Source of the DNA: Candidatus Methanophagales archaeon
GTDB taxonomy: Archaea > Halobacteriota > Syntropharchaeia > Alkanophagales > Methanospirareceae
DNA length: 32,141 nt
Assembly: GCA_025435355.1 (NCBI GenBank)
Contig: JANJFQ010000010.1
Location: 1-32,141 of the forward strand
Direction: 5' to 3'
The position numbers and the translations under genes were made by a program. The notes under the pieces are model-generated. The model ran no database searches. It had not been told where the DNA came from and saw only the letters and a list, made by a program, of their open reading frames with translations. Below are positions 1-12,800 of the stretch, piece after piece; position 1 is the stretch's first letter; each line of letters opens with the position of its first letter.

Positions 1-640
1 ATAGCGTTTCTTGATAGAGTATCCTTCCCTCAATCATTTGCGAATGTTTGAATGCCCGATCAGGTATGTAGATGAACACTAGGTCGGAGCTTGTGTGAAT
101 ATAGTCGGACAGGATGAGTGGATAGATCCCATAAGACAATATGTTCAGGGCGGTCAAGGGGAAATTCTCAGCTTGTAGCCCGCTGGCTTCTTGAGGATGG
201 ATGCCTTCTGGATGTTTTTGGACATAGCCTGTCTGTTGGGCAATTTGCTTTTCCCCCTTCCATATCTCATTCCACCATTGCTGGAAGATTTTTGGTAACC
301 AAATCTGCCCCAGAGGAAATCTCTCAAAGAAAAGGGGCCAAGTATATGACAAAGAAGTTCGACTCACATAGTTTTGATAAGGGTAAGTAGTAGAACTCTT
401 GCAGATGTAAAATAGACTTTCTTCTGAAGATTTTGGTGCATGTTTCTTGAGCCCTTCCCCCCATTCTTGTATTTTGGCCATCTCATCCAAGAGTTCCAGG
501 GCTTCGGCGCCACCAATTCTTTCTTTTACTTCTTTTTGCTGGCGCTCGGCGAGCCCCGTTTGGAATTGCTCGTCTAGCCAGGAAGCTAATTCCTTATCAA
601 ATAGACTATCGTAATTGACCTTACGAAGTAATCGAAACAT
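1..640 (-). CDS. Orphan protein, partial (cut by left window edge)
   Basis: Reading the minus strand from an ATG at 640 gives 213 codons without a stop up to the window edge, so the 3' end is missing. The start is well supported: GAGGTG lies five bases upstream. The protein begins MFRLLRKVNYDSLFDKELASW, is rich in aromatic residues (Trp, Tyr, Phe), and shows no signal peptide or clear membrane helix. I do not recognise a family. It lies about 30 bases after an attC-like element and is followed in the opposite direction of reading by nothing visible here. An unrelated open frame on the plus strand (118-390) overlaps it and is taken to be spurious. The long open frame plus a good ribosome site make it likely real; function unknown. 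Confidence 0.6.
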   Translation of the reverse strand, partial: MFRLLRKVNYDSLFDKELASWLDEQFQTGLAERQQKEVKERIGGAEALELLDEMAKIQEWGEGLKKHAPKSSEESLFYICKSSTTYPYQNYVSRTSLSYTWPLFFERFPLGQIWLPKIFQQWWNEIWKGEKQIAQQTGYVQKHPEGIHPQEASGLQAENFPLTALNILSYGIYPLILSDYIHTSSDLVFIYIPDRAFKHSQMIEGRILYQETL

Positions 641-672
641 CAAGGCACCTCATAAATATCAAAAAGTCTTTC

Positions 673-761
673 GCATAACGTTCCGAGCGTATCTGAAGTT
701 CCAAGCGAAGCGAGGAATTTGGACGAATGCTTTAGCCGTAGCCAGATACGCTCTGTTAAGT
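673..761 (-). other. attC-like recombination site (integron cassette type)
   Basis: Read on the minus strand the site begins with ACTTAAC (fits the RYYYAAC R'' box) at 761-755 and ends with GTTATGC (close to GTTRRRY, R' box) at 679-673. Inside are perfect 11-base inverted arms, GAGCGTATCTG on the minus strand at 753-743 and its complement at 695-685, enclosing about 47 bases with further partial pairing. It lies 12 bases beyond the stop codon of the 774-1772 gene and 33 bases before the start codon of the next gene, which is the layout of gene cassettes. Against it: the spacers between outer and inner boxes are unequal (1 and 5 bases), only one site is seen, and no integrase is in the window. 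A terminator hairpin is the main alternative. Confidence 0.45.
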
Positions 762-773
762 GATGTCGACTCA

Positions 774-1772
774 TTAAAATACCTCGTCTAAACTTTTTGC
801 ATTCCTTATTTTGTCAAATGTAGTATATCTAGGTGCTTGTGGGGCTTTCACCTCCCCCTTTGGTTTAGGAATTAATTTTAAATGCTCTATTTCTTTTGCT
901 TGATCCTCAAAATAAATGATGAATTTATCAGTATCTTTATATCTTTCAATTTTAACTACTTTCGCATAATGTGTTATTGCTGATGTCGGAGCCGTTTGAT
1001 AACCAGCAATATATTTTATTTTACCTATCATTGATTTTGATATTCTGATCGCATACCAGCAATTTTCTCCTAAGAATGTTTCTTCAAAACCCTCTTTATT
1101 AGCTGGAACGACTATTGTATCGACATTTTCTATCACTCCTCCGGCAACTTTACTTTTTTTAAATTCTCGTATATCTGCTTGAAAGGGTATATATTTGTGT
1201 ACATGGCAATCGAACTCTTCTTCATCAGTTATAAAGGTCTGAAATTCAACCACTTCTGTATTCATTGTTAATTGATTGAGAACATTAATTAAATCATCTG
1301 TTCTCTGGTCAATTATTATTATTGCTCCAACCGGCTTATCAAAGATGATTAATTCAAGAAAAGCATCTATGTTTCTGATGTTAAGAGATTTTAATTTATC
1401 GTCTATGAAAGATTTTTTTGCGGTGTCTTTTATTATATCGTTTAATAAAAACTCCTTAATTTTTCTCCCACTTGCTTTGTAAGATATTGAAAACTTTAAT
1501 AACTGTTGACCAATATGGGCAAAGGGATCATGGCTCGACAACTCATTTTCGATTATATATAATCGGGGATCACTTTTAAAAGAAAAGTCAATTAAATAAC
1601 CATCTGGGATAGATAATATATCTCCCCTCCCTATCCTTTTCTTAATATCTATATAGATGGATTCATCCCCAAATAATTCTCGGGAATGGGTGATAACCTC
1701 TTTTTCAAATTCTTCTTCCAAATCCCATAGATGCTGGTTATAAACTTTCTCAGTTATAAGCAAATTTTCCAT
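774..1772 (-). CDS. Orphan protein, possible nuclease-like N-terminus with EVE/PUA-like C-terminus
   Basis: A 332-residue protein. The ATG at 1772 is preferred because GAGGAGG lies nine bases before it; a TTG at 1790 overlaps that site. The N-terminal half has an acidic pattern, LIDFSFKSDPRLYIIENEL then HIGQQLLKF, that resembles the D...ExE core of PD-(D/E)XK-type nucleases, followed by an alpha/beta stretch (LELIIFDKPVGAIIIID). The C-terminal part (from GFEETFLGENCWYAIRIS to KEIEHLKLIPKP) has the look of an EVE/PUA/ASCH-type small beta barrel, a fold often used to sense modified bases. That would suit a defence or restriction role, but this is inference from pattern only; I cannot name the family. 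An attC-like site follows directly, consistent with a mobile cassette gene. Confidence 0.6.
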   Translation of the reverse strand: MENLLITEKVYNQHLWDLEEEFEKEVITHSRELFGDESIYIDIKKRIGRGDILSIPDGYLIDFSFKSDPRLYIIENELSSHDPFAHIGQQLLKFSISYKASGRKIKEFLLNDIIKDTAKKSFIDDKLKSLNIRNIDAFLELIIFDKPVGAIIIIDQRTDDLINVLNQLTMNTEVVEFQTFITDEEEFDCHVHKYIPFQADIREFKKSKVAGGVIENVDTIVVPANKEGFEETFLGENCWYAIRISKSMIGKIKYIAGYQTAPTSAITHYAKVVKIERYKDTDKFIIYFEDQAKEIEHLKLIPKPKGEVKAPQAPRYTTFDKIRNAKSLDEVF

Positions 1773-1818
1773 CAGTATCATCCTCCTCAATTAATTTAGC
1801 CGATTTTACTTGACTCAG

Positions 1819-1841
1819 GTATATCTGCAATGCGGATATAC
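1819..1841. promoter_or_regulatory. Operator-like palindrome upstream of the 774-1772 gene
   Basis: Arms GTATATC (1819-1825) and GATATAC (1835-1841) are perfect complements, with a near-symmetric centre, giving a 23-base imperfect palindrome. It lies 47-69 bases before the ATG at 1772, a position suited to control of that gene. No cognate regulator is adjacent. Confidence 0.3.
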
Positions 1842-1994
1842 TCATTTTGGGAGTGTCCTTTAACTTATTTCATAATCGTATACATCTTTTTAGTTAAGAC
1901 ATAGGGCACATATAAAGGTGTCGCAACCATGTAAAATTTTAGCGTATCTTATTATAGTGGGAGTTTTCTCTGAGTCGAAACATTCTCCATCAAA

Positions 1995-2375
1995 TTAAAA
2001 ATCATGTTTTGATTTTAGTCTCATAGAGATACCTATGAGAATAAGCAAAACTAAAGTTTTGGACTTCCTCATGAGATGCCAGATTGAAAGAGGGGGATAT
2101 TCTGGTAATGACATTGCGAAATAAGCAAGTCCCTGGTTGTAATAAGCCACTGCAAAGTTTTCCCCCAGTTCTTCTTTAATTTTGTCATCTTCTGCAAGTT
2201 TTTCTGCAAGCTCGAAATAAGAAATTGAAATGTCATATTCTCCGATAGTTCCAAAAGTGATTCCCTCGTTCATTAAAAGTTCCGCAGATATACTTCTATC
2301 TTCCTTTATCTGTTCGTATGCCTCCTCTTTCCTGCCTCTTCGTAGTAATTCTTCTAATTCGTCAAGATTCGTCAA
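1995..2375 (-). CDS. Short TPR-like protein, probably truncated
   Basis: A 126-residue protein starting at TTG 2375, chosen because GAGGAGG lies six bases upstream; an in-frame TTG at 2426 has no such site. Helical repeats of tetratricopeptide type are visible: an N-terminal helix pair (LDELEELLRRGRKEEAYEQI), a repeat around EGITFGTIGEYDISISYFELAEKL, and the start of another (NFAVAYYNQGLAYFAMS). After that the repeat pattern breaks into LPEYPPLSIWHLMRKSKTL and a short hydrophobic segment (LVLLILIGISM). In intact TPR proteins the repeat would continue, so the tail looks like out-of-frame or replaced sequence. It may be a decayed gene or a small membrane-anchored TPR protein. TPR domains bind proteins; no partner can be named. 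Confidence 0.45.
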   Translation of the reverse strand: MTNLDELEELLRRGRKEEAYEQIKEDRSISAELLMNEGITFGTIGEYDISISYFELAEKLAEDDKIKEELGENFAVAYYNQGLAYFAMSLPEYPPLSIWHLMRKSKTLVLLILIGISMRLKSKHDF

Positions 2376-2508
2376 GTTATTCCTCCTCACTTTTTTCGAT
2401 TTGTTTTTTATGACATTTTGTTGCAAACACTATTTATATCCCGTTAGACAGGTCTTGTAAATCCCCTCTAATCTCTTACTTAAAATCCTTTCATTTAAAG
2501 TTTGTGTT

Positions 2509-2664
2509 TCATTTCTCCCAAAGCTTCCACCATTTCTTTTGTGCAGAAGGTAGTCTGAGCTTCAAATGAGCTTTTTGCTCAAAAGCAAGGCCCCTTCTCA
2601 GTTCCTCGTTCGCTACTTCCGTTCTATCCCGTTTCTCTTGAAGATACTTCTTATCTTCTATCAC
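2509..2664 (-). CDS. Possible small protein or gene remnant (51 aa)
   Basis: From a GTG at 2664 the minus strand encodes 51 residues rich in Lys, Glu and Arg, ending in QKKWWKLWEK. The charged, helical composition differs from random six-frame translation and suggests genuine coding sequence. A stop lies a few codons upstream of the GTG and no good ribosome site is visible, so it may be the tail of a decayed gene. Function unknown. Confidence 0.3.
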   Translation of the reverse strand: MIEDKKYLQEKRDRTEVANEELRRGLAFEQKAHLKLRLPSAQKKWWKLWEK

Positions 2665-2718
2665 AGATAACCCACGATGTTACCCCTTATTTCCACAGCT
2701 CAAGCTCTTCTCGTGTTC

Positions 2719-2808
2719 TTACCCAAGGCATTCAACTCTTCTTTTTATCATATTCATGCAGTGCTTTGAATATTTCTTTACCATCGCATCATACACCTTT
2801 TTTGACAT
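2719..2808 (-). pseudogene. Scrap of a winged-helix regulator gene
   Basis: The 29-codon ORF starts MSKKVYDAMVKK and then diverges. Its first part matches residues KKVYDAMVKK of the regulator at 15906-16124, and 32 bases (2773-2804) are identical to 16068-16099. Only the 5' end of the gene is represented; the helix-turn-helix is absent. Best read as a truncated duplicate, not a working regulator. Confidence 0.5.
2773..2804 (-). repeat. 32-base exact direct repeat (copy 1 of 2)
   Basis: Identical to 16068-16099, where it encodes the first helix of the winged-helix regulator. The same orientation and the matching reading frame indicate copying of a coding segment, not a mobile repeat. Confidence 0.8.
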
Positions 2809-2974
2809 ATCGTTTTTCAAAAGTGACGGAGTGAGTGGCTCAAAATTCGAAAAGATTTTGGCTTCTTTTAGACTCGGTGGGTTGACAGTCTAAATCAAGA
2901 GATGAAAAAGGGGAAGGGATGAAGGAGGGGTAAAGATACACCCTCTCCCTCCATAAATAATGCTCCACCAGCAT

Positions 2975-3352
2975 CTACTTCATCAGCCACACTCCCTCTA
3001 CACCCTCAAAATGTGGATCGGCTGTAGCGAGTTCAGAATTAACGCTCATAGCACAAGCGTATATGAGCGCATCCATGGCGTGCAAGCCATACTTTGTAGA
3101 GATGTCCGCCGCACTATCAGCGATCTCCTCGGTCACCTCCACGATTATGCTCCGCTCCTTGATAAAATCCATAGCCTCTTTCACTCCTTCCATACCCTCT
3201 TTCTTCAGTTTCCTCTTCACCTCAAAAATGGAGAGAGAAGACGTGTAGAGGATCGTTTCGGATTCAATGAGTTCTTTAACCTCCTCCCTTTCAGCAAAGA
3301 AATAAGCGAGCCAGATAGAGGAGTCGAGAAGTTTAAATTCTGTCCTCCTCAT
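2975..3352 (-). CDS. vapC: VapC-type PIN-domain ribonuclease toxin
   Basis: A 125-residue PIN-domain protein. The acidic residues that bind metal in PIN nucleases are in place: D10 (KLLDSSIW), E44 (SIFEVKRK), D94 (HAMDALIYA) and D112 (TADPHF). PIN toxins cleave RNA, often tRNA, when not bound by the partner antitoxin. Its start lies inside the 3' end of the upstream antitoxin gene (20-base overlap, 3333-3352), so the two are translated together, the usual VapBC layout. Length is normal for the family and no residue appears lost, so the toxin is probably active. Confidence 0.9.
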   Translation of the reverse strand: MRRTEFKLLDSSIWLAYFFAEREEVKELIESETILYTSSLSIFEVKRKLKKEGMEGVKEAMDFIKERSIIVEVTEEIADSAADISTKYGLHAMDALIYACAMSVNSELATADPHFEGVEGVWLMK

Positions 3353-3539
3353 CCCTCAATCCCTCCAGGATCTCCTCCATCGTTTTCCTCCCGAAAGTCC
3401 CATACATGCTCTTACCCGGCTTTATAGCGTCCTTTATGAGAAGCACTATCACCTCATCATAACTCGAAAGCCGCTTCCTCCCTTTTATCTGCCGTAAAGC
3501 TTTTAGAGTTTCCTCCTTCACTTGAACCGTTGTGACCAT
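3333..3539 (-). CDS. vapB: VapB-type antitoxin
   Basis: A 68-residue protein immediately upstream of and overlapping the PIN toxin gene. The N-terminus (MVTTVQVKEETLKALRQIKGRKRLSSYDEVIVLLI) has the beta strand plus two helices expected of a short DNA-binding antitoxin of AbrB/RHH-like type, and the charged C-terminus (RKTMEEILEGLRDEEDRI) is the likely toxin-neutralising tail. Antitoxins of this type repress their own operon. A TATA-like box 27-36 bases upstream on the minus strand (3566-3575) fits a leaderless transcript. Confidence 0.85.
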   Translation of the reverse strand: MVTTVQVKEETLKALRQIKGRKRLSSYDEVIVLLIKDAIKPGKSMYGTFGRKTMEEILEGLRDEEDRI

Positions 3540-3565
3540 ACTATATTCTATATACCATAGTAACG

Positions 3566-3575
3566 TTTATAAATA
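3566..3575. promoter_or_regulatory. TATA-like box shared by vapB and the radical SAM gene
   Basis: TTTATAAATA lies in the 45-base divergent gap. It is about 30 bases before the vapB ATG on the minus strand and 19-28 bases before either ATG of the radical SAM gene on the plus strand, so it could serve either direction. Confidence 0.45.
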
Positions 3576-3584
3576 AATGACGCC

Positions 3585-4430
3585 ATGCCAGCAATGGAAG
3601 AGAAAAAGAGATTGGGAATTGGATACCGATATGTCCCTTTTATCACGCTGTCAGAGCTAAAGCCACGAGTTTGGATCACGCTTTCGGGCTGCAACTTCAA
3701 ATGTAAAGGATGTTTTAGCATCGCTCGTGGCACGGTAGGCGAGCCGATGACTGTTGAGCAGTTAATAAGTTTAGTGAAGAAATCGTCAAGTGAATATTAT
3801 GGGAATACACCGCTGGAAGAAGCAGTAATAACGGGTGGCGAACCTACGCTAAACAGACATTACCTCGTGGATTTGGTAACGCAGCTAAAAAAAATTGTTG
3901 GATGGATAGTGCTTGATACGAATGGATACTTTTTAGACGATGCTTACCTGGAAGAGCTAATAGAAGCAGGTTTAAGTGAAGTCATGTTTGACTTGAAGGC
4001 GTATGATGAGAAACTGCATGAATGGTACACCGGGCACTCGAATAAAAGAATATTAGCGAATATAAGAAATGCGTACGGAAAAATAAAGCTCGTGGTGAAC
4101 ACCGTATATATACCGGGAATTGCGGATGACCCCGAAATAGAGCAGATAGTGAAGTTTTTAGCTGAAATAGACAAGAAAGGCGAGATAGATTACAGGATAA
4201 ATAGATTCAGAGCGGAGTTGAGCCACGAGAAAATATCGAGGAATCCATATCCGGAGGAGATAGAGCGTGCTTACTCGATTGTTGCTAAATATATGAAAAA
4301 CTCGGTGATAGGCAAGAGTTGTGTGCGAGAAAGGAGAATAGGCGTAAAAAGGGGTTGGATAACGGTATTCCCGGATGGGACTTTAAAAGGGCGAACTTTG
4401 GATGATTACAGGGCAGGGTTTAGTGCTTAG
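3585..4430 (+). CDS. Radical SAM protein, glycyl-radical-activase-like
   Basis: A 281-residue radical SAM enzyme. The 4Fe-4S motif is C36-x3-C40-x2-C43 (SGCNFKCKGC), and GGEPT at 84-88 is the SAM-binding motif; VLDTNGYF and EVMFDLKAYD follow, as in activase-like members of the family. These enzymes cut SAM reductively to make a 5'-deoxyadenosyl radical. There is no second Cys cluster, so it resembles short activating enzymes, but no glycyl radical enzyme is nearby and the substrate is unknown. Translation may begin at 3585 or at ATG 3594, which is equally plausible because no ribosome site is present and the transcript is likely leaderless. A GNAT gene follows 39 bases downstream on the same strand, so the two may be cotranscribed. 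Confidence 0.8.
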   Translation: MPAMEEKKRLGIGYRYVPFITLSELKPRVWITLSGCNFKCKGCFSIARGTVGEPMTVEQLISLVKKSSSEYYGNTPLEEAVITGGEPTLNRHYLVDLVTQLKKIVGWIVLDTNGYFLDDAYLEELIEAGLSEVMFDLKAYDEKLHEWYTGHSNKRILANIRNAYGKIKLVVNTVYIPGIADDPEIEQIVKFLAEIDKKGEIDYRINRFRAELSHEKISRNPYPEEIERAYSIVAKYMKNSVIGKSCVRERRIGVKRGWITVFPDGTLKGRTLDDYRAGFSA

Positions 4431-4469
4431 AATTTATACCACAAGATATTGAGCAATTACATATAGACA

Positions 4470-4898
4470 ATGATAAGGAAATTCAAGAAGTCGGACTTGT
4501 GGGAAATTATAAGAATAGAGAAGAAAGCATTCCCCAAATCGCCTTACAACAGGTTTATTTTTTTGCATTATGCATCCGCATACCCCGATAATTTTCTGGT
4601 ATACGTAGAAGATGAAGGAACGCAGTTGAATAAAATCGTTGGCTATATAATCTTTTATCCTGAGGGGCATATAGTGTCTATCGCAGTGCATCCTGCGTAT
4701 AGAAGGAGAGGGATAGGGACAGAGCTTGTGGCGGTGGTATTGAAAAGAACGAAAGGTAAGGCAAGTGTGGAAGTGCGAGATAGCAACGAAGTGGCAAAGG
4801 AGTTTTATACACATTTAGGCTTCTCCCTTCGAACTATAATCCCAGAGTATTACGGCGACGAAGATGCACTTGTGATGGTGCGAACAGGTACAAATTAA
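4470..4898 (+). CDS. GNAT family N-acetyltransferase (RimI-like)
   Basis: A 142-residue GNAT protein. Motif A, SIAVHPAYRRRGIGTEL, carries the R-x-x-G-x-G loop that grips the pyrophosphate of acetyl-CoA, and the later VRDSNEVAKEFYTHLGF segment matches the B motif of RimI-like protein N-terminal acetyltransferases. Such enzymes acetylate the alpha-amino group of proteins; in archaea a RimI homologue modifies many N-termini. It lies 39 bases after the radical SAM gene on the same strand. Its 3' end overlaps the convergent GH130 gene by four bases. Substrate is inferred from family only. Confidence 0.8.
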   Translation: MIRKFKKSDLWEIIRIEKKAFPKSPYNRFIFLHYASAYPDNFLVYVEDEGTQLNKIVGYIIFYPEGHIVSIAVHPAYRRRGIGTELVAVVLKRTKGKASVEVRDSNEVAKEFYTHLGFSLRTIIPEYYGDEDALVMVRTGTN

Positions 4899-5779
4899 AA
4901 AATCCCTAACATTTCTTCCTTATCCACGGTAGCTACGCAAACTACACTATCTGCCCCACCGTAATATACAAAATATTTATTCCGTACCTCACATGCACCG
5001 CAAGCAAATACAACACGAGGTACCTCGCCTCTTATTTCATAATCCGCCTCTGGTTCGATAATAGGTTCAGGATGCCGGTATAACACTTTTGAAGGGTCAT
5101 CCAGGCTGAGCATCGCCGCTCCCAATCTATATACATTATCCTCGTCAACACCATGGTATATCAGCAGCCATCCTTTCTCCGTCTTTATTGGCGGAGCACC
5201 CGCACCAATCTTCTCACTTTCCCAACCTCCTTCTTCGCACGGTGCCATAATTTCTCTCGTCCCATACCACTCAGCTAAGTTATCTGAGTAACTAATCCAG
5301 ATACCCATACGCTCTCCTTCTCGTGTTGGCCTATGAAGAAGCACATATTTACCTTCAATCTTATCAGGGAAGAGAACGGCATTTTTGTTATTCATCTCAG
5401 GCCACCATACATCATATCTCCTCCAACTGATAAAGTTATCCGTGGATGCTAAACCTACCCGCATCCCCCTCTCAGAATAAGCGGTATAAGTCATATAATA
5501 ACGGTTTTCAAGTTTTACCACCCGTGGGTCCTCACACCCTCGTGGTTCCAATATCACTTTCGGCGTGAAAACCGGTTTGTCAAAGCGAAAGAAGTTGAAA
5601 CCGTCTACACTTACTGCATACCCAATTCTTGAAATACCATCCCGCCCCATAGCCCGGTAAAGGAGGTGAAATAAACCATGATCATAAACAACCGCGGGAT
5701 TAAAAACATCTTCTGATTCCCATGCATTCTCTGGCTTGGGCTTCAATATCGGGTTGCCTTCGTAACGCCTCAACTTCAT
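4895..5779 (-). CDS. GH130 mannoside phosphorylase
   Basis: A 294-residue five-bladed beta-propeller enzyme of glycoside hydrolase family 130, whose members phosphorolyse beta-mannosides to mannose 1-phosphate (some hydrolyse them). Family hallmarks: RYEGNPIL near the N-terminus, CEDPR at 82-86 carrying the catalytic Asp, and KIGAGAPPIKTEKGWLLIYHGV. Compact length is normal. The linkage acted on (beta-1,4 or beta-1,2) cannot be told from sequence by eye. It starts four bases after the upstream glycosyltransferase gene, with GGAGAGGAGG overlapping that gene's end, so the two are one operon. A second pair of the same kind is at 11628-13872, suggesting coupled synthesis and recovery of mannosides. 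Confidence 0.85.
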   Translation of the reverse strand: MKLRRYEGNPILKPKPENAWESEDVFNPAVVYDHGLFHLLYRAMGRDGISRIGYAVSVDGFNFFRFDKPVFTPKVILEPRGCEDPRVVKLENRYYMTYTAYSERGMRVGLASTDNFISWRRYDVWWPEMNNKNAVLFPDKIEGKYVLLHRPTREGERMGIWISYSDNLAEWYGTREIMAPCEEGGWESEKIGAGAPPIKTEKGWLLIYHGVDEDNVYRLGAAMLSLDDPSKVLYRHPEPIIEPEADYEIRGEVPRVVFACGACEVRNKYFVYYGGADSVVCVATVDKEEMLGIF

Positions 5780-5783
5780 TCAA

Positions 5784-6821
5784 TTACAACCTCCTCTCCT
5801 TCAATACCCCGGTAAAAACGTCTATGTATATCTCTGCTATCTTCTCCGCAGACATTATATGTGTGTACACCTCTTCCGCTTCTATAACTCTCTTCGCTAT
5901 CCTCTCATCTTCACAAAAGTCAACCAATTTATGGCACAGGTCCTCCGTATCACTATAATAGGTCACTTCATCCTTCAATGGCTGGAAGTACTCGGATTGC
6001 TGTGGAATGAAGATTGGGCAATCAGCACCTATCGCCTGGAAGATTGTAGCAGAAACAAGCCTGTGGTATCTGTTCTGGTATTTATGGAAAATAACCGCAT
6101 CCGAAGCAAATAGATACTCGTCAAACCGCTCATCTGATAAAGTCCCCTCTTCACGAACAATCATCCATGGTGGTGCCGACTCCTTCTCAAGCATCTCGTA
6201 GCCATGAGAAATCACAAATAATAAAACCACTTTCGACTTTAACTCTTCACACAAGTATCTCAGGTATGGATAATATCCCCTCTGGCAGAAAGTGAAGATT
6301 ATTTTCTTATCCATCGGCAAATCAAGTCTTTTTCTGCTTTCATACTTGTCCCCATGCCTTATAGGGAAACAGGGAAAGGGGATGTATTCTGCGTCAGGAT
6401 AAACATCCTTCAGGAACTCTTGCCGCTCATCGAAGTAAACTACTTTATCCCAGGGAAACTGATAAAACCACGTTTCCTCCGGTAACTTATCTTCGTGAAC
6501 GATATGAACCGTTCTCGCCCGATTTTTTATCATAGGGAATATCCTGGCGAGCGGTTCTACGGGGAGCGTCCTTAAGTCCTCCACTACAAAGATGTCAAAC
6601 TCTGATGTGAGTATGGGTCTTGGGTCGAGGAAGTTTTTCCCAAAGCATCTTATTACATAACGCCCGTCTTTACCCGTAAATTTGTCTTCGCCGAACTCAT
6701 CCTTAAGAAAACTGAATACAGTTACTTTATGCCCCATCGCCAGCCATGCATTCACCAGCGCTTTTGCATGCACCGCAGCGCCAGTTTCAACGTTCCATGA
6801 GGTCATCACTGCAATCTTCAT
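5784..6821 (-). CDS. Glycosyltransferase, GT-B fold (GT4-like), paralogue of 12778-13872
   Basis: A 345-residue cytoplasmic protein with a GT-B layout: N-terminal Rossmann domain (MKIAVMTSWNVETGAAVHAKALVNAW, then GHKVTVFSF), linker with IPFPCFPI, and C-terminal nucleotide-binding domain (IIFTFCQRGYYPYL to the C-terminal helices). The usual acidic E-x7-E of GT4 enzymes is not obvious; the equivalent segment reads SATIFQAIGADCPIF. It is clearly paralogous to the transferase at 12778-13872: both share the opening, TVHIVHE/TVLVVHE, the Trp-Asp-Phe/Phe-Asp pattern after it, and PFPCFP/PYPCHP. It forms a two-gene unit with the GH130 gene. A GDP-mannose donor is a guess from that pairing. GGTGGAG six bases before the ATG supports the start. 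Confidence 0.75.
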   Translation of the reverse strand: MKIAVMTSWNVETGAAVHAKALVNAWLAMGHKVTVFSFLKDEFGEDKFTGKDGRYVIRCFGKNFLDPRPILTSEFDIFVVEDLRTLPVEPLARIFPMIKNRARTVHIVHEDKLPEETWFYQFPWDKVVYFDERQEFLKDVYPDAEYIPFPCFPIRHGDKYESRKRLDLPMDKKIIFTFCQRGYYPYLRYLCEELKSKVVLLFVISHGYEMLEKESAPPWMIVREEGTLSDERFDEYLFASDAVIFHKYQNRYHRLVSATIFQAIGADCPIFIPQQSEYFQPLKDEVTYYSDTEDLCHKLVDFCEDERIAKRVIEAEEVYTHIMSAEKIAEIYIDVFTGVLKERRL

Positions 6822-6935
6822 TTGTTCTCCACCGTGCTTTATAAAGAATTTTAAAGTACTATATATAACTTACTATTATTTGCGCTATTTTCTGGTTACA
6901 TCTTCAAACAACCTTATAAACTTCATTTCTTTTAC

Positions 6936-8072
6936 TTATTCCACACCCAGATACAATCGTAAATGTTTGCGTACGGTTACTGGCCATGAGGTAGCTCTCC
7001 GGTATTTTTCCGTTCTCTCGAGTACATACTGCTCAAATTCCTTATCCGTAAAAAGGCGGATAGCCGTTTGTGCAATCCCTGATACGTCACCCGGAAGAAT
7101 AAGCAGTTCGTCAGAAATATGTTTGACCACCTCAAACTTCGGCACCCTGTAAGCAATAACTGGTTTCTTTGCCCCTATTGCAAGATGAATTGAACCGGAA
7201 GCAGACCGATCTTCATGATAATGGAGGTATAAAACAACATCGGATGCTCCGAATACATAGGGTATCTCCTTGTTTGAAATGAAGTTATCGGAAAATAGTA
7301 CGTTATCGGTAAGTTTATTTTTTAAAATCATCTTTTTGAGAAATTGAACGTATTTTCTCTGTTTTTCTGATGCGGTAGGTGCAAGACCGCCAGCAATAAA
7401 TAAATACACATCTTCAACCTCATATATTATCTCTTTGAGCACCTCAAGCGAAACATCCAGACCCTTAAAGGGATTGATAAAACCAAACACAGTAATTATA
7501 TTGCCCTCTTCTGGTAATTTTAGCCTTCTCCTCGAATCTTTCTTATCTGCATCACTGAGCGCGGTACCATGTGTGATAATATGAATCTTCTCCGATGGTA
7601 TCCCAAGCCGCTCTAATATCGCTTTCTGCGAATCAAGATGGACAATTACCTCGTCAGCAAGCTCAGCAATTTTCTTAACGCAATTCTCGGCCATCTTCAT
7701 CACCCCTCTATTAGAGAATTGGAGTGGTGTTATACAATGGATAGTTATGATCGTCCTTTTTCTCTCTGCGGTCAATCTCTTAAGCAGCGTTGGCAGTCTG
7801 TCATCAAACTTGTAAATGCCGAACTCATGTTGAATATGGACTATATCTGCGTCCTTTATATTGCTGATGATTGGGTCTACATAATTCTCATTCCTATCCC
7901 AACAGGGGACCACCTCAAATTTGTCCTGCTTGAATGGCGATGCACCCTTCTCGGCAACCACCTTAATGTCCACTAAGGGACTCACCTTTTGGATTGCCCG
8001 AATGACATAATCCGTATACGTGGCTATTCCACACTGCTGAGGGAGATAGGTAGATACGTATGCAATTTTCAT
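6936..8072 (-). CDS. Glycosyltransferase family 4-like protein
   Basis: A 378-residue GT-B glycosyltransferase. The N-terminal domain starts MKIAYVSTYLPQQCGIATYTDYVIRAI, a common opening in GT4 enzymes, with DADIVHIQHEFGIY in the acceptor cleft; the C-terminal domain has ITVFGFINPFKGLDVSLEVL and the donor-site region EDRSASGSIHLAIGAKKPVIAYR. The first acidic residue of the donor motif is present but the strict E-x7-E spacing is not. It probably transfers mannose or another hexose, but donor and acceptor are unknown. It is separated from the next transferase gene by 114 bases. Its upstream region carries a 58-base element that also precedes the winged-helix regulator gene at 15906-16124, suggesting shared control. 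Confidence 0.78.
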   Translation of the reverse strand: MKIAYVSTYLPQQCGIATYTDYVIRAIQKVSPLVDIKVVAEKGASPFKQDKFEVVPCWDRNENYVDPIISNIKDADIVHIQHEFGIYKFDDRLPTLLKRLTAERKRTIITIHCITPLQFSNRGVMKMAENCVKKIAELADEVIVHLDSQKAILERLGIPSEKIHIITHGTALSDADKKDSRRRLKLPEEGNIITVFGFINPFKGLDVSLEVLKEIIYEVEDVYLFIAGGLAPTASEKQRKYVQFLKKMILKNKLTDNVLFSDNFISNKEIPYVFGASDVVLYLHYHEDRSASGSIHLAIGAKKPVIAYRVPKFEVVKHISDELLILPGDVSGIAQTAIRLFTDKEFEQYVLERTEKYRRATSWPVTVRKHLRLYLGVE

Positions 8073-8097
8073 CTTTCAACATTATTATAACCCTATG

Positions 8098-8155
8098 TTA
8101 AATATTTCTAAATTCATATTCCGTTTTTCTAAAATAAAGAAAAATGGTGCGATAC
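8098..8155 (-). repeat. Promoter-region repeat, copy A
   Basis: About 58 bases nearly identical to 16170-16231 (a few substitutions, one 1-base and one 3-base gap). It begins 26 bases before the ATG at 8072. On the minus strand it ends in AAATATTTAA, placed as a TATA box would be for that gene, and contains CGCACCATTTTTCTTTATTTT-type sequence further upstream (key core CGCACNAT). Confidence 0.75.
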
Positions 8156-8163
8156 AAGTGTTT

Positions 8164-10146
8164 CTATTCCCCACTTTCAAACACTTTGTTTATACCTCTC
8201 GCTGTCGCCCTTTCGTCTTTGTTCAGATGCAACATGCGTGCTTCAGCGGTTTTCAGGATGGCTTCCAGCATCTCTCCGTAGGGCATTCCAGCGATGGCAG
8301 CCATCTTTGCTAAATGCCCATCCCAGCACCAGCCGGGATTAGGATTAACTTCTAAGAGTTTGGGGTTGCCTTTAGCATCCAATCTCCAGTCGAATCTGGC
8401 GTAATCCCTGCATTCAACCCGCTCAAAGAGTTTCAAACACCATTCCACGATGTTTCTTTCCACCTCTTCGGGAAGTTCCGCCCTTACTGACTGAATATTC
8501 CAATATGGCGATTCAGGGAGCCACTTCACTTCGTAGCCACATATCCGCGGAAATCCTTCAGGTAGCGATGAGTAATCCTCTTCAACAATAGGCAGAGCCG
8601 TGTAAGATTCAGGTGGATTGCCAATAATGCCCACGCTCAGGTCCTTGCCACTCAGAAACTCCTCCACGAGTATTGGCTTATCATAGCCGAATTTCTCTCT
8701 TATCTCTGAAATTGCATTCGTCAGTTCCTCCGGGCTGTATGCCACACTTCTCTGCGTTATCCCGAAACTGGAATCGCCGAAGTTTGGCTTTGCGATTACC
8801 GGGAAGTCGAAAAGAAGTTCAAAAGCAGTATCTTCAGGCTTGATGAATACCGCTTCAGGCACAGGAATATCCATCTCCTTTGCGATTCCCCTCACAAGCG
8901 ACTTATCATAACAGAAAGTGAGACATTGAGGACCTGAGCCTGTGTAAGGAATGCTGAGCATTTCGAGAAGCGCAGGAACATGCAATTCCCTTCTTGCTTC
9001 GTTCGAAAAACCTTCATCACAGAGATTGAACACAAAGTCTATCTTCGCTCGCATCTTTATCAAATCCTGAATAAGCGTGTCGTGAGTGCAGAGATAAGTG
9101 AACCGGAAGTCCTTCAATTCCCGCAACGCTTCTTTCAACCGGTCAATCGTATATAAATCATCGTCATCAAAGACGCAACAGGGTTTTATACGGTCTGGTT
9201 TGTACGGGTCACCCAGGATTACCACGACATTCTTTACCTCAATTCTCTTTTTCTTCTTTAGAGGTGTCCATTCCTTTCTGACCACTGCGGTGACCACAAT
9301 GCGTTTCTCCATCATTCCCAGGTCTTGATTCCGCTGTGAATTGGATGAGAAGTCGTCATTAAAAGTGACGTCGTTGAAACCTGCTGTCTTCAGCAGTTCA
9401 TATAAACTTTCACGAGTGTAAAGCCTTTCAGCATAAAATTGGTCCACGATTACACCTTTTCCTACATGTGTTACCACCTCTCGTGAAATCAGACGCTGTC
9501 CATCCAGCGCAAGAGAACGCTCCCGGCAAACGAAAAGGTTCTTATCTATCCATTCCCATGACCTGAGCTGGAAGTGTTCCCTCTGATATTCCCCATCCGC
9601 AACGTCAATAATAAAACGTCTCCATGGCTTTAAAACCCTGAAAATTTCTTTTAGGACTCGCAAGTCGTCCTGAACTGTCTCGAAGTAGCCGAAACTGTTG
9701 CCAAGAAGCATAACAGCATCAAAAGTATCGGGTGGATAATGTAGTCTTCTGGCATCTCCTTCCCTGAACCTGACAGACAAACCTTCCTTCTTTGCTTGCG
9801 CTTTCGCTTTTTGAATAAGGTAATGTGAGCGGTCTAAACCCTCCACATCCTTGAATCCCCTTTTCGCTAATTCTAAGGAATGGCGACCCTGCCCACAGCA
9901 GAGGTCGAGAATCTTGTCGTCAGGCGAAAGGTGAAGAATTTCTGAGAAGTAATCGACCTCTTTTCGGGTGATGTTCTGGTCATCAACCACATCCGCATCG
10001 GTTTTTAAGTAGATAGAATTGAAAATCTGCCGCCACCAATCTGGACGCACATGCTCCTCCAGGTTAGAGACCGGTCCCAGTGGTTTGGTTCCCCCGGTCA
10101 TCTTCCGCCGCGGCGGTGGCTTTTCTTTTGATGTTTCGTCCTTCAT
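8164..10146 (-). CDS. Fusion of SAM-dependent methyltransferase and D-Ala-D-Ala-ligase-like ATP-grasp enzyme
   Basis: A 660-residue two-domain protein starting at ATG 10146, preceded by AGAGGATAAAGG; an in-frame ATG at 10254 would add 36 poorly conserved residues. Residues about 60-300 are a class I methyltransferase: ILDLCCGQGRHS at 79-90, GLDRSHYL, and DTFDAVMLLGNSFGYF. Residues about 310-650 are an ATP-grasp ligase close to D-alanine-D-alanine ligase: FVFNLCDEGF, FPVIAKPNFGDSSFGI, PILVEEFLSGKDLSVGI and the metal-binding end RFDWRLDAKGNPKLLEVNPNPG. Such ligases join a carboxylate to an amine through an acyl phosphate. Archaea lack murein, so the product is probably a small peptide-like or amidated metabolite that is also methylated. 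The gene lies among glycan genes. Substrates are unknown. Confidence 0.82.
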   Translation of the reverse strand: MKDETSKEKPPPRRKMTGGTKPLGPVSNLEEHVRPDWWRQIFNSIYLKTDADVVDDQNITRKEVDYFSEILHLSPDDKILDLCCGQGRHSLELAKRGFKDVEGLDRSHYLIQKAKAQAKKEGLSVRFREGDARRLHYPPDTFDAVMLLGNSFGYFETVQDDLRVLKEIFRVLKPWRRFIIDVADGEYQREHFQLRSWEWIDKNLFVCRERSLALDGQRLISREVVTHVGKGVIVDQFYAERLYTRESLYELLKTAGFNDVTFNDDFSSNSQRNQDLGMMEKRIVVTAVVRKEWTPLKKKKRIEVKNVVVILGDPYKPDRIKPCCVFDDDDLYTIDRLKEALRELKDFRFTYLCTHDTLIQDLIKMRAKIDFVFNLCDEGFSNEARRELHVPALLEMLSIPYTGSGPQCLTFCYDKSLVRGIAKEMDIPVPEAVFIKPEDTAFELLFDFPVIAKPNFGDSSFGITQRSVAYSPEELTNAISEIREKFGYDKPILVEEFLSGKDLSVGIIGNPPESYTALPIVEEDYSSLPEGFPRICGYEVKWLPESPYWNIQSVRAELPEEVERNIVEWCLKLFERVECRDYARFDWRLDAKGNPKLLEVNPNPGWCWDGHLAKMAAIAGMPYGEMLEAILKTAEARMLHLNKDERATARGINKVFESGE

Positions 10147-10260
10147 GCCTTTATCCTCTTGATGGCGGTAGAACTTATTATTCCATAGTTTAAATACACA
10201 AGAAATAAGAAATTTAAGCGTGTGACTTCTAATCTTAATTATAATGTGCTCCAACTAAAC

Positions 10261-10541
10261 ATGATGGATATACCAACAAGAACCTTGAATACCCCCCTTA
10301 TTAAAATATCAATTGTGATTATAGCCACGGTCATAGTTGTACGGGTCATAAACCGAGCTTTGGCAACTTACTTCAAATTCGCAAGCGAGAAGCCGAAAGT
10401 TGATGAAATAACTTATACGGTTGTTAGAAGATTTTTCGCCCTTTTCGTGTCGGCGATGTCGTAGAAATGGAAAATGAATATGGAACTATAGAAGAAATAA
10501 AACCTAAGGAGAAAAAAAAGGATGAAGGGATTAGCCTGTAA
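10261..10541 (+). pseudogene. MscS channel remnant with internal deletion
   Basis: The first part encodes a membrane helix and the start of an MscS channel (MMDIPTRTLNTPLIKISIVIIATVIVVRVINRAL, then VDEITYTVVRRFFAL), and stops at TAG about 10462. In another frame the sequence continues RPFRVGDVVEMENEYGTIEEI, which is the diagnostic start of the MscS beta domain, followed by a Lys/Glu-rich tail ending at 10541. The pore helix and about 60 residues between them are missing, as is the rest of the cytoplasmic domain. Compare the intact channel at 19899-20756. It overlaps the end of the inositol-3-phosphate synthase gene by 11 bases. Non-functional. Confidence 0.75.
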
Positions 10542-11613
10542 TAACTCCTCTTCTTTCTCCCCAACTGTCTTCAATTACTTCCCTGTCCACTCTTATAAAT
10601 CTTTCCAAAAGTTCTCTTGCCACTTCGTCTGGATACTGTAGCGGCGGATGCTTCATCGTATACGCAGATATTTCTATCAGCGGTCCTGCAATTCCTCTAT
10701 CCAGCGCAAGTTTGCATACCCGTATCGCATCAATCGTGCTTCCTCCACTGTTAGGCGAGTCCTCCACTGAAAGTCTGAGTTCAAGGTCTATCGGAATATC
10801 TCCAAATATTCGTCCTTCCATCCGCAAGAAACATATCTTGTTGTCGCGCTGCCATGGGACGTAATCAGAGGGGCCTATGTGAATGTCATCGGGCATCAAC
10901 GGAACATCCAGAACCGACTGCACCGCCTCTGTCTTTGAAATCTTCTTTGATTTCAATCGCTCCCGGTTCAGCATATTCAAAAAATCGGTGTTTCCACCTG
11001 TGTTAAGCTGATAGGTCCGGTCGAGCTTACATCCGCGGTCGTTGAACAACTTCGCAAGCGTTCTGTGAACAATCGTCGCACCAATCTGCGATTTCACATC
11101 GTCGCCGACCACAGGTAATTTCTTCTCCTCGAATTTCCTCCCCCATTCGGGGTCGGATGCGATAAACACTGGCATGCCGTTGATAAACGCCACACCTGCT
11201 TCCAAAGCCGCTTTCGCATAGAACCTCGTAGCTTGCTCCGAGCCCACGGGCACGTAATTCACCAAAATCTCAGCACCGCTCTCTTCAAGCTCCTTCGCTA
11301 CATCGCATGGCTCTTCATCCGCAACCACGAATGTTTTATCCTCTGGATACCTGTACATGTGTGATGCCACACCGTCCAGAACCGGTCCCGTCCTTACTTC
11401 CACACCGTAATAAGGTACTCGATAAAAAACCACAGTGCAATTAGGCTCTGCAAAAACCGCTTCACTTAGGTCCTTCCCCACTTTCCTCTTATCTACGTCA
11501 AATGCCGCTACAACCTCTATATCGCCTGGTCTGTATCCATTGATCTCATAGTGCATCAAACCGATGCAATCCTTCGCATCCACGTGTTTGTAATACTCGA
11601 CTCTTTTTCTCAC
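10531..11613 (-). CDS. ino1: Inositol-3-phosphate synthase, N-terminally short
   Basis: A 360-residue protein of the myo-inositol-1-phosphate synthase family, which turns glucose 6-phosphate into inositol 3-phosphate with bound NAD. It follows the actinobacterial-type sequence closely: EVVAAFDVDKRKVGKDLSEAVF, VNYVPVGSEQATRFYA, GDDVKSQIGATI, LNTGGNTDFLNM, SKKISKTEAVQS and DSPNSGGSTIDAIR. What is missing is the start: homologues begin with a strand and NAD-binding loop of the kind VAIVGVGNCASSLVQG before the EYY motif, whereas here GTG 11613 leads almost directly into VEYYK. The upstream frame has no other start codon and soon meets a stop, and upstream DNA codes for the GH130 gene. Either the enzyme is truncated or a distant start is used. 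It is the last gene of the inositol operon. Confidence 0.85.
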   Translation of the reverse strand: MRKRVEYYKHVDAKDCIGLMHYEINGYRPGDIEVVAAFDVDKRKVGKDLSEAVFAEPNCTVVFYRVPYYGVEVRTGPVLDGVASHMYRYPEDKTFVVADEEPCDVAKELEESGAEILVNYVPVGSEQATRFYAKAALEAGVAFINGMPVFIASDPEWGRKFEEKKLPVVGDDVKSQIGATIVHRTLAKLFNDRGCKLDRTYQLNTGGNTDFLNMLNRERLKSKKISKTEAVQSVLDVPLMPDDIHIGPSDYVPWQRDNKICFLRMEGRIFGDIPIDLELRLSVEDSPNSGGSTIDAIRVCKLALDRGIAGPLIEISAYTMKHPPLQYPDEVARELLERFIRVDREVIEDSWGERRGVITG

Positions 11614-11627
11614 CCCCTTTATTTGCT

Positions 11628-12800
11628 CTAATTTTTCTCCTGCTCCAAAACATCCCAGAGATAATCCAGTAAATTACCTAAATCGCAGGTTAACAGGATA
11701 ACATATTTATCGCCACTGCCACAGTAGAGGTGGAGTTTATCCTTTACAACAACGATTCCGGTGGGAAAAACGACTGCGGGGACATCAACTGGATATACCA
11801 CATCGCCATAAAGTTCATAGGGCTTTGAAGGGATATAGATTGGCACTTTAGTTCTACATAAGACATCTCTCGGATTCTCTAAATCTAATATGGCTGCGGA
11901 TACAGAGTATGCCTTTTTAATCCCCTTTTTCAGCCCGTAACTCTTTGCCATCTCTGAATTTATTTCTCCAACACCGTGATAGATCAGTAACCATCCACTC
12001 TCAGTTTTTATAGGTGGTGGACCTGCACCTATCTTTTCTTTCTCATGTTGATACATGCCCGCTTTTAAAATTCGATTTTTTTTGCGCCTCTCATGAAGAA
12101 TCAGCCATTCCTTTCTATGTTTATCTGGCATTAATAATTGCTCCCATCCAGCATCCAATACATCGAGAAATATGCCATTGGATGGAGGGTATCTCAGTAG
12201 CATATAGACATCTTCATTTTCCATAAATGGTATCGAATTTCGAGATTCTATGCCGTGTACTATCCCATGATAGGCAATCTCTTTAAAGTCGGATGTAGAA
12301 TAGATGGCTATTCTATCATCATCTCCATTACCCTTGAATGGAGGGTTTAACTTCCCCGTACCTATCAATAAATATTTTTCCCGAAGCTTGATTATCCTCA
12401 TATCCTCTATCCCATAGAGAAAATCCTTATGCTGGGTTCCATCTCCCGTAATTACAGAATTGTTGATTCTTTGAAAACGGACGCCATCTTCGCTTATCAA
12501 TGGCCATATCTCTGAAATATATTCCTCAAATTTGTTTCTTTTAATGCCTGATTTATGGTCAAAAAACTCTTTCTTTCGGTAGTTTGTATGGCATCTCGGC
12601 GTTAATAATATCTTACCATAAAAAATTTCTGCTCCCGGATTGAAAACTGCTCCTGACTGAGGTCTTCCATTTTCGTAGCATAATAAACCCAAATCGTTGG
12701 GTTCTATTATGGGATTACCTTTATACGAGTCCAATTTAAATACCTTCTCGCCGGAATCCAGTCTGAGGACTTCACCTTCACCAAATTCTTTCACTTCCAC
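11628..12800 (-). CDS. GH130 mannoside phosphorylase-like protein (second paralogue)
   Basis: A 390-residue protein of glycoside hydrolase family 130. Visible hallmarks: SYKGNPIIEP, a catalytic-Asp region YGIEDMRI at 129-136 (Met replaces the usual Pro of EDPR), and KIGAGPPPIKTESGWLLIYHGV, which is nearly identical to the first GH130 protein here. It is about 95 residues longer than that paralogue, with extra sequence near residues 70-100 and around the LKKGIKKAYSVSAAIL segment. Probably phosphorolyses or hydrolyses a mannoside. The GTG start at 12800 lies inside the end of the glycosyltransferase gene (23-base overlap) with GGAGG upstream. The inositol-3-phosphate synthase gene starts 14 bases after its stop, so it sits in the middle of the inositol operon. 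Confidence 0.8.
   Translation of the reverse strand: MEVKEFGEGEVLRLDSGEKVFKLDSYKGNPIIEPNDLGLLCYENGRPQSGAVFNPGAEIFYGKILLTPRCHTNYRKKEFFDHKSGIKRNKFEEYISEIWPLISEDGVRFQRINNSVITGDGTQHKDFLYGIEDMRIIKLREKYLLIGTGKLNPPFKGNGDDDRIAIYSTSDFKEIAYHGIVHGIESRNSIPFMENEDVYMLLRYPPSNGIFLDVLDAGWEQLLMPDKHRKEWLILHERRKKNRILKAGMYQHEKEKIGAGPPPIKTESGWLLIYHGVGEINSEMAKSYGLKKGIKKAYSVSAAILDLENPRDVLCRTKVPIYIPSKPYELYGDVVYPVDVPAVVFPTGIVVVKDKLHLYCGSGDKYVILLTCDLGNLLDYLWDVLEQEKN

Follow-up and report, generated by a model that had tools for sequence, protein, structure and literature searches.

Integrons are the best-known natural gene-capture platform. The literature considered includes an integron review (PMC8946536) and PMC8371274, and archaeal integrons have been reported in nine phyla (PMC9668308). 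ANME, Methanophagales and Halobacteriota are absent from the main text of the latter article; Halobacteriota may be among its nine phyla. The IntegronFinder 2.0 article (PMC9024848) gives no integrons for the archaeal genomes of its database. In the open-licence literature we found no report of a Methanophagales integron or of a Halobacteriota attC, and the articles found there for an ANME integron or an ANME-1 tyrosine recombinase do not, to judge by their entries, concern arrays of the kind described below. ANME-1 we take to be a name for the order to which the DNA analysed here belongs.

The window, that is the whole stretch of 32,141 nucleotides of a Candidatus Methanophagales contig that was analysed, begins with what we interpret as the head of an integron-like array, consisting of an attI-like sequence, a complete first cassette and the start of a second. 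We put the probability of this reading, the capture mechanism proposed below included, at roughly 0.88. The sites, the arrays, the attI, the position of the junction, the match of R'' to the end of its own cassette and the sharing of cassettes between genomes can be read from the sequences themselves.

The window hairpin and the first cassette

The preliminary description of this DNA had reported an 89-base site with R''- and R'-like boxes and perfect inner arms of 11 bases, placed 12 bases past the stop codon of a gene, and each of these particulars proved accurate (Table 1), the 12 bases being counted to the start of R''. Exchange in this site is expected between positions 679 (G) and 678 (T). 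The junctions of cassette 1 were set by comparison with the attI of relatives and with a copy of the cassette in contig L028. The attI-like stretch matches the attI of two relatives, L224 and L228 (blastn E 1.4e-4), and its junction, aligned by eye, reads G|TC and not G|TT. The R'' box fits the classical consensus and the R' box lies outside it. Folded as a single sequence, the hairpin is unexceptional (z -1.2 and -1.7); we rate it above chance because copies of it recur and not because of its folding score.

Table 1. Coordinates of the array-head features in the window
Feature	Positions	Strand	Remarks
attC-like site	673-761	minus	89 bases; supported by family and covariation
R'' (ACTTAAC)	761-755	minus	part of the attC-like site
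Inner arm GAGCGTATCTG	753-743	minus	one base after R''
Complementary arm CAGATACGCTC	695-685	minus	five bases before R'; variable middle between the arms
R' (GTTATGC)	679-673	minus	part of the attC-like site
Cassette 1 as a unit	679-1813	minus	5' end TCAAGTAAAAT, gene, attC through the G of R'
Cassette 1 gene	ORF 774-1790; ATG at 1772 after GAGGAGG	minus	predicted nuclease-ASCH protein
Cassette 2, start	1-678	minus	ORF 2-643 leaves the contig; no Pfam match
Degenerate attI-like sequence	1814-1880	minus	ends GCAGATATACCTGAG; 5' limit approximate

The gene of cassette 1 had been called an orphan, which is refuted by relatives at 26 loci in bacteria and archaea, one of them 87% identical and located in the Methanophagales MAG GLR107 (another relative, L031, contains stops and was left out of the alignment of relatives). 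The protein has no match in Pfam or PADLOC, and sequence searches of the PDB gave matches at chance level only. In its predicted model (pLDDT 84) the C-terminus adopts an ASCH fold (5y6b, Z 8.9, 104 aligned residues, rmsd 3.1) and the N-terminus is PD-(D/E)XK-like, resembling the EndoMS-type structure 2vld (Z 8.6, 108 aligned residues, rmsd 2.7). Foldseek returned no match under 0.001 for this model and, with Z scores of 8 to 9, these folds are likely rather than proven. The protein thus likely combines a PD-(D/E)XK-like nuclease part with a C-terminal ASCH-like domain, and the EndoMS-like and ASCH-like parts of the model agree with the earlier suggestion that the cargo is a fusion of nuclease and base-sensing modules.

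The cassette copy in L028, which belongs to GLR107, is 88.8% identical over 1084 bases and likewise starts directly behind an attI-like sequence; its own site ends after the first arm. Neighbouring cassettes of L028 (7096-9330) encode a TIR-type Pycsar-like effector and an ORF that, judged by eye, is adenylate/guanylate cyclase-like, possibly a Pycsar pair split across two cassettes. The remaining part of the window (5784-30122) is devoted to ordinary metabolism, with glycosyltransferases, GH130, GH38, a Na/H exchanger and an inositol-1-phosphate synthase gene adjoining a nucleotidyltransferase/CDP-alcohol transferase fusion.

A family of sites in codirectional arrays

With the window hairpin as DNA query, nine further copies or partial copies were recovered at E<0.01 from the genome to which the window belongs (G000; 227 contigs, 82% complete, same family as G030). 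No mcrA was found in this MAG. The covariance model R1, built from nine aligned copies, identifies 25 sites in G000 at E<=1e-4, the nine training copies included. Of the 53 genomes of the order 52 have R1 matches, at most 38 in any one of them. In a sample of 392 genomes from the phylum, 96 have matches, 44 of which are from outside the order; a genome so counted in this sample need not possess arrays. Among 12 named contrast genomes GLR107 has 18 matches, nine have none and two have weak ones (three in Bacillota MES16 and one in Frisingicoccus). The matches of GLR107 agree in position and score with those of G030 wherever both are listed. The aligned matches, 135 in number, contain 662 two-sided compensating cells as compared to a shuffled mean of 234, and none of 500 shuffles equalled this value; the alignment was fitted to R1 and so favours the structure, and sliding the partners destroys the signal.

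The R boxes of classical sites follow the consensus RYYYAAC and GTTRRRY. In the archaeal family R'' ends in AAC in 196 of 211 sites and R' starts with GTT in 176 of 211, and the consensus is fitted by 62 (R'') and 56 (R') of the 211. Strand asymmetry takes the form of unequal spacers: beside the stem, 77 of 168 sites have one base next to R'' and five next to R', and the two spacers are unequal by four bases in 109 of 168. With regard to extrahelical bases of the folded attC, the longest uninterrupted pairing run has a median of 9 with a wide range, the perfectly paired inner arms of the window site measuring 11. The exact 18-base attC arm also occurs in a contig from a viral collection (L253, IMGVR_UViG_2651869799_000002, 1142-1159), in a stretch to which R1 gave no match at E<=0.05.

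How the sites are arranged was analysed for at least 175 of them in seven genomes, those of G000 being taken at E<=1e-4. Among the matches listed, neighbours no more than 4 kb from each other share one direction in 54 of 54 pairs, which holds for 7 of 11 pairs with 4-10 kb between them and for 4 of 7 pairs at greater distances; random placement of these matches predicts about 8 pairs within 4 kb. Adjacent sites within 4 kb are separated by a median gap of 829 bases, and 88 of the 175 sites have such a neighbour, the other 87 being solitary, again among the matches listed. In contigs chosen partly for their clusters, 73 of 75 pairs are codirectional after removal of three overlapping matches, and both exceptions involve sites with E >=0.03. 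The longest ORF runs in the direction of the site in 104 of 116 cassettes and opposite to it in 12, cassettes without an ORF of 40 amino acids being skipped. The median cassette has 904 bases and an ORF of 223 amino acids. Most families among 104 cassette proteins are present once or twice; they include DNA methylases, MazF, HepT with nucleotidyltransferase, DUF5615, CAAX proteases, Pycsar cyclases and one ThsB-like match.

In an integron, the circular form of a cassette unites its R'' with the R' of its own 5' end in a single site; the R' adjacent to this R'' in the array is that of the next cassette. Of 122 archaeal cassettes, 100 had usable boxes and 22 were dropped. Of 12 positions compared in these 100, R'' shares 9.10 with its own cassette's 5' end and 7.13 with the R' of the same site; it is closer to its own 5' end in 72, farther in 8 and tied in 20. 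Identity over the first nine bases is seen in 44 cassettes for the own end and in 2 for the same-site R' (p 2.8e-12), and the preference is seen both inside (63) and outside (37) the order. Since the alignment used for placing the boxes favours pairing within a site, the test is conservative. Such a match of R'' to the own 5' end would be expected if the cassettes circularise and recombine at G^TT.

Cassettes held in common tell the same of the edges. A cassette of L055 (G000) is 96.7% identical to one of L182 (G051) while their 50-base flanks are 24% and 48% identical, and a 275-base cassette present in both G036 and G037 shows 94.5% identity from end to end, with 37% and 30% in the flanks; in both cases homology stops at G^TT. 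L273 (G075, same class) and L272 (G387, another part of the phylum) share 93.7% identity across 59-2090 of 2101 bases, and L152 (G034) and L271 (G387) have a whole cassette in common at 74%; several other matches of this kind are incomplete or have their ends elsewhere than at the junction. Judged by this signature in the DNA alone, the cassettes would be circularising units that exchange at G^TT.

The recombinase at the array head

Which enzyme, then, would act on these sites? A tyrosine recombinase of about 340 residues is encoded upstream of the arrays and is read in the same direction. Fragments scoring at least 85 bits with the subfamily profile occur at 23 loci, 14 of which have an R1 site on the same piece (some of the 23 were chosen for their sites; nine of the 14 are among the 20 picked by recombinase score). 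At each of these 14 loci the next site lies downstream on the same strand, and of the nine loci without a site eight stop within about 150 bases of the gene, the ninth (L225) running siteless for 923 bases. Outside the order, six of six strong matches are upstream of and codirectional with the sites (G075, two in G387, G076, G057 and G077), and genomes with sites such as G034, G028, G002, G066 and G100 gave no recombinase match at E<=1e-20. Inspected copies have intact catalytic motifs, with L259 failing the strict pattern for the first of them. Decay of the gene is frequent; the search of G000 yielded fragments only, and tblastn detected no remnant in the window. At odds with the simple layout are weak C-terminal scraps in L064, L156 and L169, which are placed close downstream of a site. 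L065, a contig of G000 that has a site as well as a recombinase fragment, carries ORFs which by eye we presume to be of the mevalonate pathway.

The stop codon of the recombinase is followed by conserved sequence with palindromes (e.g. ATATACGCAATATTGCGGATATA) that ends in GATATACCGAAG|TT and that we regard as attI. Its identity is 48% before the junction and 33% after it (ungapped, 78 pairs), for junctions picked by pattern, with L235, L064, L258, L260 and others misfitting or left out. Contig L219 ends at the attI junction.

The recombinase lacks the IntI-specific insert and falls outside the IntI clade as sampled here, as judged from profiles, motif spacing and phylogeny. None of the 53 genomes of the order passes the cut-off of the IntI model TIGR02249. 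Aligned with VchIntI (2a3v), the recombinase profile matches in two pieces, with 61 IntI residues facing 19, whereas archaeal XerA (4a8e) is matched in one piece. From the first catalytic box to HxxR nearly all copies measured have 93 residues (96 in L266), as compared to 134 in IntI1 and 99 in XerD. The archaeal XerA model NF040815 (XerA_Arch), which carries 'integron integrase' in its product name, is passed by three of three proteins. In a tree of 30 sequences, the deeper branches of which are poorly supported and in which IntI and Xer are thinly sampled, the archaeal enzymes form a clade with sequences from viral contigs, Chryseobacterium and Persicobacter and with TnpF (98.9/100), separate from IntI1 and its relatives (97.9/100). 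The same clade contains TnpF-type recombinases encoded on plasmids of Acinetobacter (e.g. FJ012881.1, 39471-40265). These share 48% identity with the Chryseobacterium enzyme, and their genes presumably adjoin tet(X). More distant relatives lie directly upstream of IS91-family transposase genes in L304 and L305.

Proposed mechanism and relation to known systems

As relatives show it intact, the system has a tyrosine recombinase that lacks the IntI insert and whose gene lies immediately upstream of attI, reading with the cassettes. At G^TT this enzyme would recombine the attC of a circular cassette, in folded form, with attI or with a second attC, and genes would thereby be added, removed or shuffled. 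We infer that the recombinase at the array head is the enzyme that performs this exchange; attC presumably works in single-stranded, folded form, and strand choice may be set by the additional 3-4 bases next to R'. Against intact capture at the window itself stand the missing recombinase remnant there, the mere fragments in G000 and the mutated junction G|TC, and the array of this MAG is probably not mobile by its own enzyme at present. Against the cassette reading itself count the 87 of 175 listed sites that are solitary, the 8 of 100 cassettes that fit the neighbouring R' better, the 22 of 122 with unusable boxes and the 12 of 116 in which the longest ORF is opposite to the site.

Other explanations have to be weighed against this one. 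A transcription terminator or structured RNA element, which the preliminary description had named as an alternative in the form of a common terminator, would suit a hairpin that starts 12 bases past a stop codon and folds on both strands. Yet termination needs neither conserved arms nor a junction-specific pattern of R boxes, R'' tracks the 5' end of its own cassette, the cassettes recur with edges at G^TT and the sites are associated with a recombinase; no Rfam family was found in window positions 1-5000, one sub-threshold match lying elsewhere. We consider this the least probable of the alternatives. Scarcely more credible is a dispersed, self-moving hairpin repeat of the MITE or REP type that came to lie behind genes by chance. 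Half of the sites are indeed isolated among the matches listed, and copies per genome are many, but the complete codirectionality of close neighbours among those matches, the tracking of the far end of the cassette by R'' and a common unit made up of gene and site, with unrelated flanks and edges at G^TT, do not fit such a repeat. The hairpin alone as the mobile unit was rejected, since gene and site recur together.

Closer to our reading, and improbable without being quite so remote, is a canonical integron that lacks intI, that is a plain CALIN on which an ordinary IntI acts in trans. Arrays of attC-like sites without an adjacent IntI are what a CALIN would look like, and CALINs are described as common in archaea (PMC9668308); however, not one of the 53 genomes of the order passes the IntI cut-off, next to the attI of the arrays lies the gene of another recombinase, and the R boxes and the asymmetry of the spacers are unlike those of classical attC. 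The proposal of an integron cassette in an archaeon is thus supported by the sites, the codirectional arrays, the own-end match of R'' and the shared cassettes, though not as one of the canonical IntI type. The suggested search for an integrase and further attC sites was rewarded in part, with sites in arrays and a recombinase elsewhere in the same and related genomes; no recombinase was found in the window, and the enzyme is not an IntI. Failure of the integrase test places the system outside the IntI integron family and leaves the cassette reading well supported.

The system is near-universal in a methane-cycling order. The IntI insert has been described as necessary for integron recombination (PMC9668308); if insert-free capture holds, it is not essential. 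Such capture would supply a mechanism for the shuffling of defence and toxin-antitoxin genes in ecologically important archaea, would explain how standard integron searches could miss these arrays, and would make the origin of integrons testable by biochemistry. More tentatively, and at slightly less than even odds, we suggest a second, IntI-independent integron lineage, Halobacteriota-wide, whose Xer-like recombinase lacks the insert, has an added N-terminal domain and is read with the array, and whose clade reaches Bacteroidota plasmids and viral contigs; integron function would then either predate the insert or have arisen twice.

Among known recombinases, archaeal XerA (4a8e, 5hxy; NF040815) resembles the array enzyme in the one-piece profile match, the lack of an insert and the cut-off passed by three of three proteins. 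XerA acts at dif; the array recombinase differs in its extra N-terminal domain and in its location with arrays. The recombinase of a Chryseobacterium plasmid (NZ_CP041688.1) is 42% identical over 97% and has the same N-terminal domain, and behind its gene lie small genes in the same direction and three structured repeats that close with GTTA. In this locus (L288, NZ_CP041688.1 10035-23045) recombinase, small genes and repeats occupy 5971-11780; the repeat of 209 nt is present in three copies, 90-98% identical, each of which ends in GGCCGTTA and then diverges. Different from the archaeal arrays, it is located on a bacterial plasmid and its repeat has no R1 match; recombinase and repeats nevertheless look like a bacterial counterpart. 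The repeats of two further Bacteroidota plasmids (L301, L302) show no comparable array.

The reverse integron of Treponema denticola (PMC4909258), a bacterial system likened here by gene orientation alone, has its integrase gene oriented like the cassette array. The archaeal integrons of Ghaly et al. 2022 (PMC9668308) share chromosomal attC cassette arrays with the present system, but their IntIs are described as carrying the IntI-specific domain, which the recombinase of the Methanophagales order lacks. Like sedentary chromosomal integrons of the IntI type and their CALINs, the arrays have an attI, codirectional cassettes, as a rule with one short ORF each, an exchange point at G^TT, attC sites with AAC...GTT boxes and a variable, covarying end, and a cargo of defence and toxin-antitoxin genes. 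They differ from IntI integrons in a recombinase without the insert (spacing 93 as opposed to 134) that lies outside the IntI clade sampled and is read along with the array, and in R boxes mostly off consensus with spacers of 1 and 5. Taken together, the sequences suggest a system that would work like an integron and yet is not a canonical IntI integron.
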